64,000 nt of DNA, from the IMG/VR virus record IMGVR_UViG_3300044908_000045, positions 1 to 64,000 of that record; one strand, 5' to 3'. Positions 3,178-13,668 of this stretch are shown here, piece by piece (within the stretch, counting starts at the first letter, position 1; every line of letters starts with the position of its first letter). Made by a program: the position numbers and the translations under genes. The DNA is from a virus. The notes under the pieces are model-generated. The model had not been told where the DNA came from, ran no database searches, and saw only the letters and a program-made list of their open reading frames with translations.

Positions 3178-3187
3178 ACATCTTGAT

Positions 3188-3263
3188 GGCGAGGTTAGTG
3201 AACCAGTGGAAACGCCGCCCTGTGGAGGCGGAGCAGCGGGGCCAGAACCCGCACCTCGCCCCA
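3188..3263 (+). tRNA. tRNA-His(GTG)
   Basis: Acceptor GCGAGGT/ACCTCGC with a G at -1 (3188) facing C73, the identity pair of tRNA-His, followed by CCA. Anticodon loop CTGTGGA on CCGCC/GGCGG. T-stem GCGGG/CCCGC carries the unusual loop GCCAGAA and the D-arm is weak. Confidence 0.82.
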
Positions 3264-3268
3264 TCTAG

Positions 3269-4588: not shown

Positions 4589-4969
4589 ATGAGGGTCCTC
4601 AATGCCAGACAGGTAGGATGTAAATCTACGAAAACCGCGACTTATGTCGGGCGACCTTCGAAGTGGGGCAATCCCTTTCTCATTGGGCGGGATGGGCCTC
4701 GTGACGAAGTCATCGAACGCTATAGGCTCTACCTGAGTCAGAACGATGATCTGATGGCGCAGATCGTCGAGTTAAGGGGTCGGGACCTTGTCTGTTGGTG
4801 TGCGCCACACCGGTGCCACGCAGATATCCTGCTTGAATTAGCCAACGCCCCTTCTTCCAATGGCTCAAGGAAACCGGCCTCTCAAGTCGGGAATGCTCGG
4901 TTCGATTCCGGCAGGGGCGACCAACACCCCGCGCCTCGGGGGTTTCTCAGGGGCCGAGAAAGACGATGA
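4589..4969 (+). CDS. DUF4326 family protein with tRNA-derived tail
   Basis: 126 aa from the ATG at 4589, which has GATAGGAG upstream; an earlier in-frame ATG at 4532 lacks one. YVGRPSKWGNPF near residue 18 and DLVCWCAPHRCHADILLELAN near residues 66-86 are the signature of DUF4326, a small domain frequent in phages. Family members usually stop just after LLELAN. Here translation continues through the whole tRNA-Glu gene for about 40 more codons, so the native 3' end was lost on tRNA insertion. Confidence 0.8.
   Translation: MRVLNARQVGCKSTKTATYVGRPSKWGNPFLIGRDGPRDEVIERYRLYLSQNDDLMAQIVELRGRDLVCWCAPHRCHADILLELANAPSSNGSRKPASQVGNARFDSGRGDQHPAPRGFLRGRERR
4846..4923 (+). tRNA. tRNA-Glu(CTC)
   Basis: Acceptor CGCCCCT/AGGGGCG, D-stem TTCC/GGAA, anticodon loop CTCTCAA on CCGGC/GTCGG, T-loop TTCGATT, A73, CCA. 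Lies wholly inside the DUF4326 reading frame. Confidence 0.8.
4927..4946 (+). terminator. weak G/C hairpin after tRNA-Glu
   Basis: CCCCG and CGGGG pair around a five-base loop and are followed by GTTTCTC. Short stem and poor T-run; perhaps only a tRNA trailer structure. Confidence 0.3.
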
Positions 4970-5421: not shown

Positions 5422-5513
5422 GGAGCGCTCCGGCTGAATGGTCGGCCACCAGTCCTGAAAACTGGGATGGATGCCTCAAAAGGCAGGGGGTTCGATTCCT
5501 CAGCGCTCCGCCA
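5422..5513 (+). tRNA. tRNA-Ser(TGA)
   Basis: Class II. Acceptor GGAGCGC/GCGCTCC, anticodon loop CCTGAAA (C33) on CCAGT/ACTGG, variable arm GCCT/AGGC, T-loop TTCGATT, G73, CCA. Confidence 0.85.
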
Positions 5514-6360: not shown

Positions 6361-7032
6361 ATGACCATGGAAGTAAGTTTGCGACGGGCGTCGCAGATCA
6401 TCAACGCAATTCAACGACGCATTGAGCCGCCGCGCGAGGAGCCAGAGGAAGACGTGTATGGTCGTCGACGGCGACGCCACGCCAAGAGCGTAAACCCGCT
6501 GGCGGTGGTCGCGTCGGTTGACGTTGACACGGCGGATGTCGCGGGGGTGCTTGCGCGCCGCGCTGAGTTGCGGCTCAAAATGGAGATGACGTGGCGACTG
6601 ATGGGTGTGCTGACGGTGCTGCGCAAAGCGGTAGGTGGCGCCAATCATCAGTGTGGCATCGCGAGCCTTGTGACTTCGCGCGCTGGCTTGCTGCGCAAGC
6701 AGCAAATCCTCGATGGGATGATCAAAGAACTGACTGGCGCCAGCACACTCGACGAGTGCGATTTGAAGACGAAACTGGACGCATTGCGCGAACGGATTGC
6801 CGCCATGGCGGCACGCCCATCATCGCGCTATGGCGAACCGGAAACGCCCGCCGACAAACTCTCGGTGCCGTTGCTGACCGCCGCTGATCATCGGGATCTA
6901 CAGCGTGATTTGCTGGCGGTCAATCGTCGTTTGGTCGAGATTGACGATCAGTTGTCTGCCAAGAATGCGAGCAACAAGATCGTGATCGACGATGGCGATG
7001 CCGAGGTATTGGAGGCGGAAGGCATCATTTGA
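6361..7032 (+). CDS. conserved phage protein, helical (possibly DUF6847-like)
   Basis: 223 aa, ATG after GAGAGGGA. It opens with MTMEVSLRRASQIINAIQRR, a pattern I associate with a family found in large tRNA-rich phages (DUF6847-like; not certain). A basic patch GRRRRRH lies near residue 35 and three long helices with heptad character follow (about 75-110, 130-170, 185-205). No catalytic motif. It is one of two larger unknown genes in the RNA island, the other being at 11947. A scaffold or RNA-associated role is only a guess from location. Confidence 0.8.
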   Translation: MTMEVSLRRASQIINAIQRRIEPPREEPEEDVYGRRRRRHAKSVNPLAVVASVDVDTADVAGVLARRAELRLKMEMTWRLMGVLTVLRKAVGGANHQCGIASLVTSRAGLLRKQQILDGMIKELTGASTLDECDLKTKLDALRERIAAMAARPSSRYGEPETPADKLSVPLLTAADHRDLQRDLLAVNRRLVEIDDQLSAKNASNKIVIDDGDAEVLEAEGII

Positions 7033-9125: not shown

Positions 9126-9131
9126 CCCCTC

Positions 9132-9390
9132 ACAAGATCGGCGGCGTAGGGTACGGTTACTTCGTTGCTGTGAACGACGATGGGCTTCGGCCCAGTTCCC
9201 GTTCCCGCCTGTTCCCCGGTCGCAGTTCTGATTGACGGCAGACGGCGTAGGGCAGAGGTACTTCGTAGCTCAACTGGTAGAGCATCAGTCTATCAAACTG
9301 ACGGTAGTTGGTTCGAATCCAACCGACCCCGCAAGGGGTTAGCTCCTCTTCCCGCTTATTCCTCTGCCGCCTATCCCTGCGATCGGTTCC
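9132..9390 (+). ncRNA. Y RNA (YrlA-like) with tRNA-like module, upstream of Ro60
   Basis: From 9265 to 9333 the RNA has a tRNA-like body: TAGCTC..GAGC D-arm, anticodon-like stem TCAGT/ACTGA with loop CTATCAA, and T-arm GTTGG/CCAAC with TTCGAAT. Its acceptor strands do not pair (TACTTCG against CGACCCC), so it is not a tRNA. Instead GGCAGAGG (9251-9258) pairs with CCTCTGCC (9361-9368), extended by GGC/GCC, giving a closed RNA of about 128 bases. This matches the known architecture of bacterial YrlA Y RNAs: an end stem for Ro60 plus a tRNA mimic. A UUCG hairpin lies at 9181-9194, and GATCG (9136-9140) can pair with CGATC (9380-9384). Confidence 0.75.
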
Positions 9391-9412
9391 TTTCAACAGA
9401 GGAGTAGGTCGT

Positions 9413-10816
9413 ATGGCACGATTGAACGTTGCGGCCAGGAAGCCGCAAACTCCACCACAGGCCACCAACCCAATCTATCCGTCGAATGTCCAGCGTACCC
9501 ATGAGGGCGCGCCTGCGGCAGAGATCCCAGTCGAACTCCAACTGCGCCGTGCTGTGTGTTCCTGCCTGTTGTGGGAGGACACCCACTACGAGAGCGGCAA
9601 GGACATCGGCGACCGCATTGTCGAACTCGTCGGCAAGGTACCGGTGGGAGTCGCGACCACCTTGGCGATGGATGCCCGCAACCATTTCCATTTGCGGCAT
9701 GCGCCGCTGCTGGTCATGGCGGCTGTCGCGGCACCGGGTCGCGGTGGTTCACGGATGATCGGCGAGGCGCTGGCGAACGTGATCCAGCGGCCTGACGAAT
9801 TGACCGAATTCCTGGCGATCTATGCCAAGGTCTACGGCGTGCCGCCAAATGCTGTCCGCAAGCGGCTGTCGGCGCAGGTCAAGAAGGGTATCGCAGCGGC
9901 GTTCGGCAAGTTCGATCGCTATCAGCTCGGCAAGTATTTCTCGCCCTCTGGTGAGAAGGGTCAGCCGATTCGCGCCCGCGATGCGATGTTCTTGACGCAC
10001 CCAAAGCCGCTCGACGAAGAGCAGGCGGCTCATTGGAAGCAGCTTATCGCCAAGAGGGTTGTCGAGGAAGGCGGGGCTGACACTTGGGAAACCAAGCTGT
10101 CGAGCGGCAAGGACAAGAAGGAGACCTTCGAAGAGCAGTTGCGTGCTGGAAAGCTCGGCTATCTCGCCCTATTGCGCAATCTGCGCAACATGACGCAGGC
10201 GGGGGTTGATGAAACCCTGATTGCCGACGCAATCGTCGGTCGTCGTGGGGCTCGACGGGTGTTGCCATTCCGCTATGTCACGGCGGCACGCGCTTGCCCG
10301 CAGATGGCAAAGCCGCTTGATCAAGCACTGCAGCAAGCGATTCTTGATCTTCCGGTATTGCCAGGGCGCACCGTGGTGCTGGTCGATGTCTCAGGTTCGA
10401 TGGACGCGCCAATCTCAGGCAAGTCCGAACTGAACCGCATTGACGTGGCGGCGACATTGGGAGCGATCGTACCGGGCGACTGTCAGACATTCTCGTTCTC
10501 GCACTCGGTAGTTGCAGTTGGCCAGCCACGCGGTCTCTCTGGCATTGAGGCGATCAAGCGCAGTCAGCAGCACGGCGGGACGTATCTCGGTCAGGCTGTC
10601 GATTTCGTGAACAGGATTGATCATGATCGGCTCATCGTGATCACCGATGAACAGAGTCATGACCATGTGCCGGCGCCAAAGGCGAGCAAGGCTTACATCA
10701 TCAACGTCGCCTCATATCGAAACGGCGTCGGCTATGGCAACGGCTGGTGTCACGTAGATGGATTCTCCGAGCAGACACTCCGCTTCATTGCTGAGTTCGA
10801 GAAAATCCTGAATTGA
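9413..10816 (+). CDS. rsr: Ro60/Rsr orthologue (TROVE domain + VWA)
   Basis: 467 aa, ATG at 9413 with AGAGGAG upstream. Residues about 25-300 are the TROVE region, a ring of HEAT-like helical repeats that binds misfolded RNA ends in its hole and Y RNA on its outside. DVSGSM at 325-330 is the MIDAS motif of the C-terminal VWA domain. Length and order agree with bacterial Rsr/Ro60. In bacteria Rsr works with Y RNA in rRNA maturation, rRNA decay with exonucleases, and stress recovery; some mycobacteriophages also carry Ro60 and Y RNA. Here the Y-RNA-like gene and a consensus promoter lie directly upstream. Likely clients are the phage tRNAs and rRNA-like RNAs (inference). Confidence 0.93.
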   Translation: MARLNVAARKPQTPPQATNPIYPSNVQRTHEGAPAAEIPVELQLRRAVCSCLLWEDTHYESGKDIGDRIVELVGKVPVGVATTLAMDARNHFHLRHAPLLVMAAVAAPGRGGSRMIGEALANVIQRPDELTEFLAIYAKVYGVPPNAVRKRLSAQVKKGIAAAFGKFDRYQLGKYFSPSGEKGQPIRARDAMFLTHPKPLDEEQAAHWKQLIAKRVVEEGGADTWETKLSSGKDKKETFEEQLRAGKLGYLALLRNLRNMTQAGVDETLIADAIVGRRGARRVLPFRYVTAARACPQMAKPLDQALQQAILDLPVLPGRTVVLVDVSGSMDAPISGKSELNRIDVAATLGAIVPGDCQTFSFSHSVVAVGQPRGLSGIEAIKRSQQHGGTYLGQAVDFVNRIDHDRLIVITDEQSHDHVPAPKASKAYIINVASYRNGVGYGNGWCHVDGFSEQTLRFIAEFEKILN

Positions 10817-11857: not shown

Positions 11858-11886
11858 TTGACGCCTTCGGGATCGCCGCTTATCCT
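11858..11886 (+). promoter_or_regulatory. sigma70-type promoter upstream of the 244-aa gene
   Basis: TTGACG (11858-11863), 17-base spacer, TATCCT (11881-11886). Start expected near 11893, leaving a leader of about 50 bases before the ATG at 11947. Confidence 0.65.
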
Positions 11887-11946: not shown

Positions 11947-12681
11947 ATGGCAAAGCTCAACCAGATTATCGCGGTGGAGAAGGGCATCAAGTCGCGGGTC
12001 TACGGCGAGATTACCGAACTCCACAAGGTCAACCAGAAGCCGGCGCTCTTCAGCGGATTCGCCAAGGACTACCATCCGATTGACGATGCTGGCGAGGCGC
12101 TTCCTCCCGAGCGGCAGCGGGTGCAGTACCGCGCCAATGAGATCCTCCAAAAGCTGGCGGTACTCAGTACCGAGTTGATGGATGTCACCGCGCGCAAGGA
12201 CTGGACGAACTGTCAGGCCACGGCCGATGTCTCGGTTGACGGCAACGTACTGATCCCGGCCGTGCCAGTGACGTATTTGCTCTTCTTGGAAAAACAACTG
12301 ACCGACCTGCGCACGTTCGTAGCGGAGTTGCCCCTGCTCGACGAGGCGGACGATTGGTCGCTGGACGACAACTCGGGTCTTCAACGCACCCCAGAGATCA
12401 AGACGCACCGGACGAAGAAGCTTCAGCGGCCGGTCGTGCTCTACGACGCGACGCCGGAGCACCCGGCGCAGACGCAGTTGATCACCGAGGACGTGCTCGC
12501 TGGCTATTGGCACCAGACGAAGCTCTCTGGGGCTATGCCGCGCCCGAAGCAGCGGGCGCTGGCCGAGCGCGTCGAGAGGCTGCTCCAGGCCGTCAAGCAG
12601 GCCCGCGAGGCCGCGAATTCGGTGGACGAGACCGCGACGCCCGAAATCGGCGCGAGGGTCTTCGACTACCTGTACGAATAA
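11947..12681 (+). CDS. conserved phage protein (DUF7873-like)
   Basis: 244 aa, ATG after GGGGACG and its own promoter. The opening MAKLNQIIAVEKGIKSR, followed by ITELHKVNQKPALFSGF, is a strongly conserved signature that I associate with a family in large tRNA-rich phages of actinobacteria and others (DUF7873-like). Middle region residues about 80-145 look alpha/beta; the C-terminal third is helical and basic. No enzymatic motif. Because it co-occurs with tRNA arrays and Ro60 in such phages, a role in RNA metabolism or takeover is plausible but unproven. Confidence 0.8.
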   Translation: MAKLNQIIAVEKGIKSRVYGEITELHKVNQKPALFSGFAKDYHPIDDAGEALPPERQRVQYRANEILQKLAVLSTELMDVTARKDWTNCQATADVSVDGNVLIPAVPVTYLLFLEKQLTDLRTFVAELPLLDEADDWSLDDNSGLQRTPEIKTHRTKKLQRPVVLYDATPEHPAQTQLITEDVLAGYWHQTKLSGAMPRPKQRALAERVERLLQAVKQAREAANSVDETATPEIGARVFDYLYE

Positions 12682-12696
12682 ACTCAGACTGAGGGT

Positions 12697-12782
12697 CAAA
12701 TTCAGGAGCGGACGTGAAGGTTCGAGCCCTTCCCCCCGGACCACCAGACCACCGACCGGGGGTGGCGAAATTGGCAGACGCG
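12697..12782 (+). tRNA. probable circularly permuted tRNA-Leu (3' half before 5' half)
   Basis: The upstream part has T-arm GAAGG/CCTTC with TTCGAGC (12716-12732), then CCCCCGG-A-CCA (12733-12743). No partner for CCCCCGG lies upstream. After a 12-base spacer comes CCGGGGG (12756-12762), TG, and a Leu-type D-arm GCG..CGC (12765-12781). The two acceptor strands pair over seven bases. The anticodon arm is not resolved (CTGAG/CTCAG candidates lie on both sides), so the assignment rests on acceptor, D-arm and T-arm. Confidence 0.45.
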
Positions 12783-12869
12783 GTCGTAAGGCTGTCCGCA
12801 GATAAACCTGAGATTATGTCCCCCAAACTGAGTATTGCCGCGCTGGCCCAATCGATCGGGGCGGCACCC

Positions 12870-12953
12870 AACACCGACAACGCTGGTTCGAATCCAGCCC
12901 TGGCCGCCAATTCACTCTGGCCGGGTAGTTTAGCGGAAGAACGGTCGGCTCTC
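12870..12953 (+). tRNA. circularly permuted tRNA, anticodon loop split (Glu or Leu)
   Basis: 3' half first: CCGAC (12874-12878), T-arm GCTGG/CCAGC with TTCGAAT, then CCTGGCC-G-CCA (12899-12909). After nine bases the 5' half follows: GGCCGGG (12919-12925), TA, D-arm GTTT/GAAC with AGCGGAA loop, G, and GTCGG (12944-12948). GGCCGGG pairs with CCTGGCC (one G-U) and GTCGG pairs perfectly with CCGAC, so acceptor and anticodon stems are both rebuilt only in permuted order. Loop CTCTCA.. joined to ..ACA gives CTC (Glu) or CAA (Leu) depending on the junction. Confidence 0.62.
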
Positions 12954-13003
12954 AGACTCGGGTTGCCCCTTAAACGCCATGGACCGGGCGAAATCGCGGC
13001 ACC

Positions 13004-13037
13004 GGCCCCGGTGATGTAGGCTACACTCACCGGGGCC
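13004..13037 (+). terminator. long perfect hairpin closing the RNA island
   Basis: GGCCCCGGTGA (13004-13014) pairs with TCACCGGGGCC (13027-13037), and the interior is itself near-palindromic. It is followed by ATTTCTC rather than a clean T-run. Probable bidirectional terminator or processing stem. Confidence 0.55.
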
Positions 13038-13059
13038 ATTTCTCTCAACGGAGCACCAG

Positions 13060-13668
13060 ATGTCTCGCGCAGCGATGAAGGAGCGAAGTAGATCGCTGCA
13101 ATATAACACGCTGATCCTAAACGCCGACTTCTGGCCGCTCAGCACGTATCCGGTGTCTATCAAGCCTGCGCGCAAGGCAATCGAGAACTATATCAAGCGC
13201 AAGGTTGATATAGTTGACGATTGGGGCGTAATGGTACGCTCATCGACGCTGACTGTGCCGGTTCCAAAAGTTGTCGTGCTTAGGCAATTTGCCCCCATCT
13301 ACGGCGAGCCGAAGTTCTGTCGCCGCTCAATACTTGTGCGCGATAAGTTCCGGTGTCAGTATTGTGGGCAGGAGTTCCCATCGCAAGAACTCACCTACGA
13401 TCACGTCATTCCGCGCTCGCTGGGCGGTAAGACGACTTGGACGAACATCGTCACTGCTTGCTTGCGGTGCAACGCTGCAAAGGCGAATAGTCTGCCGCAT
13501 TATAGCGGACGCAAGGGTGTCGTCCGGCCCGGTAAGATGCGCCCACTCAAGGAACCTCGGCGTCCGACTAATGCGGAGCTACTGCGTGCGGGGCTGCAAT
13601 TCCTGCCGAATGATGTCAGGGATGACTTCGGGTCGTATCTGTATTGGCACACTGAATTGCGGGCGTGA
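13060..13668 (+). CDS. HNH endonuclease
   Basis: 202 aa, ATG 7 bases after GGAG. N-terminal NADFWPLSTYPVSI and the pre-HNH strands match the widespread HNH family of proteobacteria and phages. The HNH core has CQYCG (C99, C102), DHV (D114, H115) and CLRC (C134, C137), so metal ligands and catalytic His are present. It cuts DNA; in phages the type works in packaging, homing or host-DNA degradation. It follows the terminator-like hairpin and is the first gene of the structural block. Confidence 0.88.
   Translation: MSRAAMKERSRSLQYNTLILNADFWPLSTYPVSIKPARKAIENYIKRKVDIVDDWGVMVRSSTLTVPVPKVVVLRQFAPIYGEPKFCRRSILVRDKFRCQYCGQEFPSQELTYDHVIPRSLGGKTTWTNIVTACLRCNAAKANSLPHYSGRKGVVRPGKMRPLKEPRRPTNAELLRAGLQFLPNDVRDDFGSYLYWHTELRA

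Follow-up and report, generated by a model that had tools for sequence, protein, structure and literature searches.

A predicted DUF7873-associated RNA with two permuted tRNA-like domains in phages and Streptomyces

In the 122-kb virus record IMGVR_UViG_3300044908_000045, the 64-kb stretch analysed here (positions 1 to 64,000; "the window") carries a long tRNA array and, at positions 12870–12953, an element in which the 3' half of a tRNA lies before the 5' half. Is this a circularly permuted tRNA gene that must be circularised, or spliced in its anticodon loop, as a preliminary description of the sequence proposed? We find that the permuted unit is not a stand-alone permuted tRNA but the second of two tRNA-like domains (TLD1 and TLD2) of an RNA of approximately 320 nt, located directly 3' of a DUF7873 gene. 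Since this twin RNA is conserved and adjoins DUF7873 genes in Streptomyces, related actinobacteria and many phages, it is probably a tRNA imitator and not a decoding tRNA. The gene and the parts of the RNA are as follows.

11947–12681, + strand: DUF7873 gene (PF25283, Pfam E 4.5e-94), 244 aa; the constant neighbour, co-directional with the RNA
12682–13000, + strand: twin tRNA-like non-coding RNA; extent judged from the outermost paired elements, true ends approximate
12682–12713, + strand: 5' strand of basal stem P1 under unit 1, from ACTCAG (12682–12687) to GCGGAC (12708–12713)
12716–12732, + strand: T arm of unit 1 (TLD1), then 3' acceptor strand CCCCCGG at 12733–12739 (permuted-unit scan, model R2)
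12740–12755, + strand: TLD1 linker, starting ACCACCA; linkers of relatives are variable, 4–43 nt
12756–12762, + strand: TLD1 5' acceptor strand CCGGGGG, then a Leu-like D arm at 12765–12781 (permuted-unit scan)
12794–12833, + strand: 3' strand of P1 with a conserved motif, CTGAGATTATGTCCCCC in the window and TCAGATTATCGCTC in relatives (RNAfold, alignment A5)
12837–12842, + strand: 5' strand GCCGCG of the unit 2 outer helix (duplex P2)
12858–12865, + strand: 5' strand GGGGCGGC of the unit 2 basal stem, a covarying 8-bp helix
12874–12878, + strand: 3' strand CCGAC of the anticodon-like stem, pairing with 12944–12948
12882–12898, + strand: T arm of unit 2 (TLD2), then 3' acceptor strand CCTGGCC at 12899–12905, G73 at 12906 and CCA at 12907–12909
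12919–12925, + strand: TLD2 5' acceptor strand GGCCGGG, then D arm at 12928–12942 and anticodon-like stem 5' strand GTCGG at 12944–12948
12962–12969, + strand: 3' strand GTTGCCCC of the unit 2 basal stem, pairing with 12858–12865 and overlapping the conserved motif CTTAAACGCC at 12969–12978 (alignment A4, model R1)
12995–13000, + strand: 3' strand CGCGGC of the unit 2 outer helix, pairing with 12837–12842 (duplex P2)

The elements named in the preliminary description are all present, in the order T arm, 3' acceptor strand, CCA, linker (13 nt), 5' acceptor strand and D arm. The acceptor (7/7, with one G-U) and the anticodon-like stem (5/5) pair in the permuted order only. A scanner for permuted units, which looks for a T arm, 3' acceptor strand, linker, 5' acceptor strand, and D arm with anticodon-like stem, returned TLD2 as the sole match of its kind in the window with a score of 41; the best of 60 dinucleotide shuffles of the 64 kb reached 39. 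ARAGORN located 23 linear tRNAs in the window, including a tRNA-Glu(CTC), and an ordinary linear tRNA built on either half was dropped as an explanation since neither ARAGORN nor Rfam places one at 12870–12953. The observation that opened this study was therefore real, yet it covered only part of the structure: immediately upstream there is another permuted unit, and both units stand on basal stems of a larger RNA.

No DNA-level relatives of the locus were found in named phages. Through the DUF7873 protein (54% identical) we located contig IMGVR_UViG_3300037755_000850 (L003), which holds both units with the order kept. Relative to the window, its TLD2 acceptor has changed to GGCCCTG/TGGGGCC and its anticodon-like stem to CTTGC/GCAAG, which constitutes compensatory change; the same permuted order with compensatory changes, which the preliminary description had suggested looking for among relatives, is also found in phage and Streptomyces loci. 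Two further matches to a TTAAACGCCNTGGANCGG pattern, in L004 and L006, were taken as chance; their surroundings are not tRNA-like.

Relatives of DUF7873 occur in 73 phage records and in actinobacterial plasmid records, the phage hosts being Vibrio, Gordonia, Rhizobium, Klebsiella, Serratia, Arthrobacter, Rhodococcus, Pseudanabaena and Microcoleus. Further matches were found in 192 stretches of viral contigs. Bacterial genomes contributed at least 490 more stretches, and the 80 of these that were kept are all Streptomyces. The region downstream of DUF7873 usually lacks annotation; permuted units were detected there in 78/92 phage or plasmid loci versus 3/88 upstream controls, and 57 of those 78 possess two units, typically some 150–170 nt apart. 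The Streptomyces loci gave 77/78 downstream and 0/78 upstream. We found no other conserved neighbours of these loci. A sample of 148 actinobacterial genomes was drawn from the class to which Streptomyces genome G006 belongs; full-length matches to model R1 (see below) were present in nine of them, and DUF7873 was found in the same nine, adjacent and on the same strand; G006 is itself among the nine, and R1 was built partly on actinobacterial sequences. Two further genomes contain the tRNA-like part only. A tRNA gene lies within approximately 3 kb of the module in 49/93 phage loci and 20/80 Streptomyces loci, and its frequent placement amid phage tRNA genes is consistent with a part in handling tRNA while the phage infects its host.

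To recover the common structure, the two halves were aligned separately because global alignment recovered little beyond the T arms, the acceptors and part of the D arms. Alignment A4, of 28 loci excluding the window phage and L003, possesses an 8-bp basal stem, T stem, 7-bp acceptor and D stem. Its covariation score was 0.962, against 0.245 ± 0.018 for shuffles and 0.11–0.20 for slid controls. The basal stem, which took no part in the selection of loci, is paired in 89.7% of cells in the 28 relatives, with both-side changes at 8/8 pairs. Model R1, derived from A4, matched the held-out window along the entire model (12840–12981; 99.9 bits, E 1.1e-21) and the held-out L003 with 98.3 bits. Model R2, built for unit 1, likewise matched the held-out window along the entire model, at 12671–12855 (112.5 bits, E 1.3e-23).

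For both basal stems, cognate duplexes between the linker segments were compared with non-cognate ones, in the case of P1 over 57 sequences. P1, whose 5' strand pairs with 12794–12833 in an RNAfold prediction of 12680–12835, gave -35.6 versus -26.8 kcal/mol, and P2 gave -40.2 versus -28.9 kcal/mol; control pairing puts a small composition effect, about 2.4 kcal/mol, on such energies. An exact-helix test of P1 was weak (6.25 versus 5.65), so the case for this stem rests upon the duplex energies and the match to R2, a model in whose structure P1 is not contained.

Across the family both the T and the D arm are kept, as are the acceptor stem, the basal stem and two motifs, TTATCGCTC and CTTAAACGCC. 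Position 74 is a C with C or T after it in 173/216 linkers, and this holds even in members that have lost CCA. Such a C-Y motif would be compatible with the GGU loop of RNase P RNA. Position 73 is mostly A in TLD1, which has the Leu-like D arm, and T or G in TLD2. In some Streptomyces TLD1 has shrunk to a small hairpin while TLD2 is retained (L135, approximately 4860–4900), which suggests that the two domains are not equally needed.

These features bear directly on whether either unit could be a true permuted tRNA gene, in which RNase P and a 3' nuclease would cut the linker and an anticodon splice or ligation would join the halves into a decoding tRNA. Permuted tRNA genes of Cyanidioschyzon, green algae and some Archaea likewise place the 3' half first, possess a full acceptor stem and D and T arms, and sometimes carry CCA in the linker. 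The window phage taken by itself looks suitable, with perfect cloverleaf stems, an encoded CCA, a linker long enough for processing to a CCA 3' end, and an anticodon loop in TLD2 readable as CTC (Glu) with G73. The family as a whole does not. An anticodon-like stem of at least 4/5 bp occurs in 51/57 non-redundant relatives, but in this set U33 is kept in only 18/51 TLD2 units and in 3/38 TLD1 units with such a stem; in L003 no U33 is read with the equivalent stem, and the discriminator differs (U). CCA occurs in the TLD2 linkers of 28/56 phage or plasmid loci and 0/52 Streptomyces loci. Many linkers are of 7 nt or fewer, down to 4–7 nt, too short to process and merely capping the acceptor as a hairpin. 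What is conserved in place of an anticodon is a basal stem with loop motifs, and the putative anticodon loop is an internal loop above the covarying 8-bp helix. In addition, two units are tied to a protein gene, the window phage already encodes its linear tRNA-Glu(CTC), and no RtcB or PF09414 RNA ligase was found in its contig, though the host may supply one. Given linkers this short and the lack of conservation of CCA, anticodon and U33, splicing into a decoding tRNA is very improbable. Of the preliminary description, the order, the stems and their conservation with compensatory change stand, and a tRNA gene in need of circularisation or an anticodon-loop splice finds no support. There is still less to be said for decay of tandem tRNA genes, with adjacent halves that merely happen to pair. 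The window phage does possess a long tRNA array, and tandem tRNAs yield weak matches to the YrlA model discussed next, but conservation with compensatory change in phages and Streptomyces, and the fully paired (7/7) acceptors that two distant phages show in each of their units, are at odds with chance; the covariation refutes this idea, to which we give next to no credence.

The preliminary description also held that among bacterial RNAs only tmRNA is known to be permuted. This overlooks the YrlA-type Y RNAs, which have a T-acceptor-D order (RF02553 consensus). YrlA is bound by Rsr, an orthologue of Ro60; DusA and TruB modify the tRNA-like domain of YrlA, which also binds PNPase (review PMC8394870). 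A Y RNA was our first hypothesis because of a sub-threshold YrlA match, the shared order, a nearby TROVE gene and the units found in Ro60 phages; the basal stem would then bind Ro60 (TROVE) and the tRNA-like domain PNPase. The likeness is considerable: YrlA and related bacterial Y RNAs (RF02553; PDB 6CU1) contain a permuted domain with T arm, closed acceptor stem and D arm, their basal stem is formed from the two RNA ends, and they occur in bacteria and phages. The window phage encodes a TROVE protein (9413–10816, PF05731) approximately 1.9 kb upstream of the RNA, and Ro60 phages bear similar units by the Ro60 gene. Nevertheless, RF02553 scored only 23.0 bits in the window, against a gathering cut-off of 69, and covered only model positions 30–81, over the junction. 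In L003 both units were matched, again below the cut-off, with a full-length match at 20.9 bits; unit 2 there aligns weakly at the 3' motif. The twin RNA also has a covarying basal stem, but with other conserved motifs (TTATCGCTC and CTTAAACGCC), and its 8 bp lie near the domain. The twin RNA further differs in having two domains in some 320 nt and DUF7873, not Ro60, as its constant neighbour. Eight named phage records with DUF7873 were tested for TROVE and seven lack a match, as does the possibly incomplete L003 contig, and the RNA is for this reason not filed under YrlA; among Streptomyces genomes with DUF7873, TROVE was found in 13/20. For the units by phage Ro60 genes, matches to R1 and R2 (approximately 20–47 bits) fall chiefly within the tRNA-like part rather than on the basal stem and tail, so the two kinds of RNA share the domain and not the rest. 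With its low score, the absence of Ro60 from most DUF7873 phages and these partial matches, the Rfam YrlA match was dropped as sole explanation, and membership in the YrlA family of Ro60 Y RNAs appears unlikely. A toxin-antitoxin or decoy module, in which the RNA would counteract DUF7873 or draw off a defence nuclease that cleaves tRNA, is distinctly unlikely as well. The two-gene arrangement, the repeated RNA unit, the unconserved neighbours and the frequent position amid phage tRNA genes would suit it, and type III systems also set a repeated structured RNA beside the gene for a small protein. Here, however, the RNA is downstream, its units are tRNA-like and lack the anticodon that is the usual target of tRNA-cleaving nucleases, and DUF7873 has neither a PADLOC match nor a toxin-like fold match. 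With two-piece (permuted) tmRNA the twin RNA shares a tRNA-like domain without an anticodon arm and, at the level of the gene, a linker that connects the acceptor ends; it differs in possessing two such domains, in not keeping CCA and in that no tag reading frame was noticed, and Rfam tmRNA models matched neither the window nor the RNAs downstream of DUF7873.

We consider it likely that the locus specifies a DUF7873-associated RNA with two tRNA-mimic domains, which forms a ribonucleoprotein with DUF7873 and neither domain of which is spliced to a decoding tRNA. The analysis establishes the order, the pairing, the conservation and the constant DUF7873 neighbour: TLD1 and TLD2 each resemble a tRNA whose open end is at the anticodon and not at the acceptor, with the linker closing the acceptor stem and the anticodon side running into a basal stem with conserved loop motifs. 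Partner binding and function we infer as follows. The structured RNA of some 320 nt would be made with or next to DUF7873, from a shared transcript or its own promoter. As the gene order suggests, the RNA may associate with DUF7873, and by analogy with YrlA and the Ro60-PNPase complex the two elbow-plus-acceptor domains might dock or titrate RNase P, PNPase or tRNA-modifying enzymes. In this respect the twin RNA probably works like YrlA as a tRNA mimic, and the independent occurrence of similar permuted units by phage Ro60 genes speaks for the proposal.

Several observations weigh against this proposal. Single-sequence folding of unit 2 is no more stable than that of shuffles (z 0.46). The permuted-unit scan itself demands pairing, which leaves the controls, the basal stem and the held-out models as the only evidence free of bias. 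A complete NCCA end is encoded by many of the phage members, although a pure mimic would have no need of it. RNA binding by DUF7873 is a guess from synteny, since the protein is slightly acidic (30 K+R, 36 D+E) and its predicted fold, although modelled confidently by AlphaFold (predicted local distance difference test, pLDDT, 93), is without known relative, giving no match to PDB or BFVD at E <= 0.001. A bolder version, possible in our opinion yet doubtful, is that DUF7873 and the twin RNA constitute a categorically new ribonucleoprotein unrelated to Ro60, the mimics acting jointly on the machinery of translation or of tRNA; in members with an encoded NCCA, opening of the acceptor linker by RNase P and CCA enzymes may give chargeable two-piece tRNA mimics.

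Rfam 15 contains no family corresponding to the twin RNA. At gathering thresholds, tRNA, tRNA-Sec and tmRNA matches occurred in 11 of the DUF7873-downstream loci, none of them at the RNA itself. Our search, confined largely to non-subscription literature, returned no published description of DUF7873, of a phage permuted tRNA or of a Streptomyces tRNA-like RNA. The tRNA-like domain is of a known kind, while the twin arrangement and the link to DUF7873 appear new. A conserved two-domain, tRNA-shaped RNA with a dedicated protein gene thus seems to have gone undescribed, though present in many Streptomyces chromosomes and in phages of diverse hosts. It would extend permuted tRNA mimicry beyond the Ro60 Y RNAs, and Streptomyces, harmless to work with, offers a laboratory setting for learning what tRNA mimics do. 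Tools that count linear tRNAs only will miss such RNAs, and their halves are open to misreading as split or permuted tRNA genes, as the preliminary description illustrates.

The flanks of the module contain two further candidate signals.

11858–11886, + strand: weak promoter-like site upstream of DUF7873 (consensus scan 9/12), which might serve a shared transcript
13004–13040, + strand: G+C-rich hairpin followed by ATTTC, a possible 3' end judged from sequence, not called by the terminator scan

The consensus scan found no promoter-like site between DUF7873 and the RNA in the window; in L003 a promoter-like TTGACA-17-TATTTT was seen by eye between the two, at approximately 6760–6800. An HNH endonuclease gene (13060–13668) lies directly 3' of the RNA, and the near-identical contig L007 diverges in sequence at the HNH position, as if the neighbour had been replaced.

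The TROVE protein of the window (9413–10816) also belongs to phrog_850 and has relatives in Xanthomonas, Brevundimonas, Caulobacter, Rhizobium and crAss-like phages. Beside its gene, at 9130–9400, is a tRNA-like element without a normal acceptor (Rfam tRNA match at 9263–9326), flanked by GGCAGAGG/CCTCTGCC and by a GGTTACTTC motif that is also present by other phage Ro60 genes; this is likely a Ro60 Y RNA. Permuted units lie just upstream of Ro60 genes in several phages, with up to four in Caulobacter phage CcrColossus: L026 (5640), L030 (4358), L032 (4343), L033 (4180), L034 (4003, 4177, 4506 and 4671) and L036 (4741). Some of these units encode CCA.

A second RNA-like element occupies 2321–2676 of the window. 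Both of its ends (GTTGGCTTAGGAGCAGCCATCATCTAAGGAGTG and GGCGTGGCAGCACACC) match the GTPase-associated centre of 23S rRNA, and they close an insert of approximately 280 nt with a sarcin-ricin-loop-like AGTACGAGAGGAACAGC. Jumbo phages of Erwinia and Xanthomonas (L213, L214) keep both ends, unannotated, around a different insert. Lastly, ARAGORN missed tRNA-like genes at 803–873, 1625–1702, 3185–3265 and 5422–5511, among which Met(CAT), His(GTG) and Ser(TGA) were recognised by eye; the first of the four regions is also an Rfam tRNA match.
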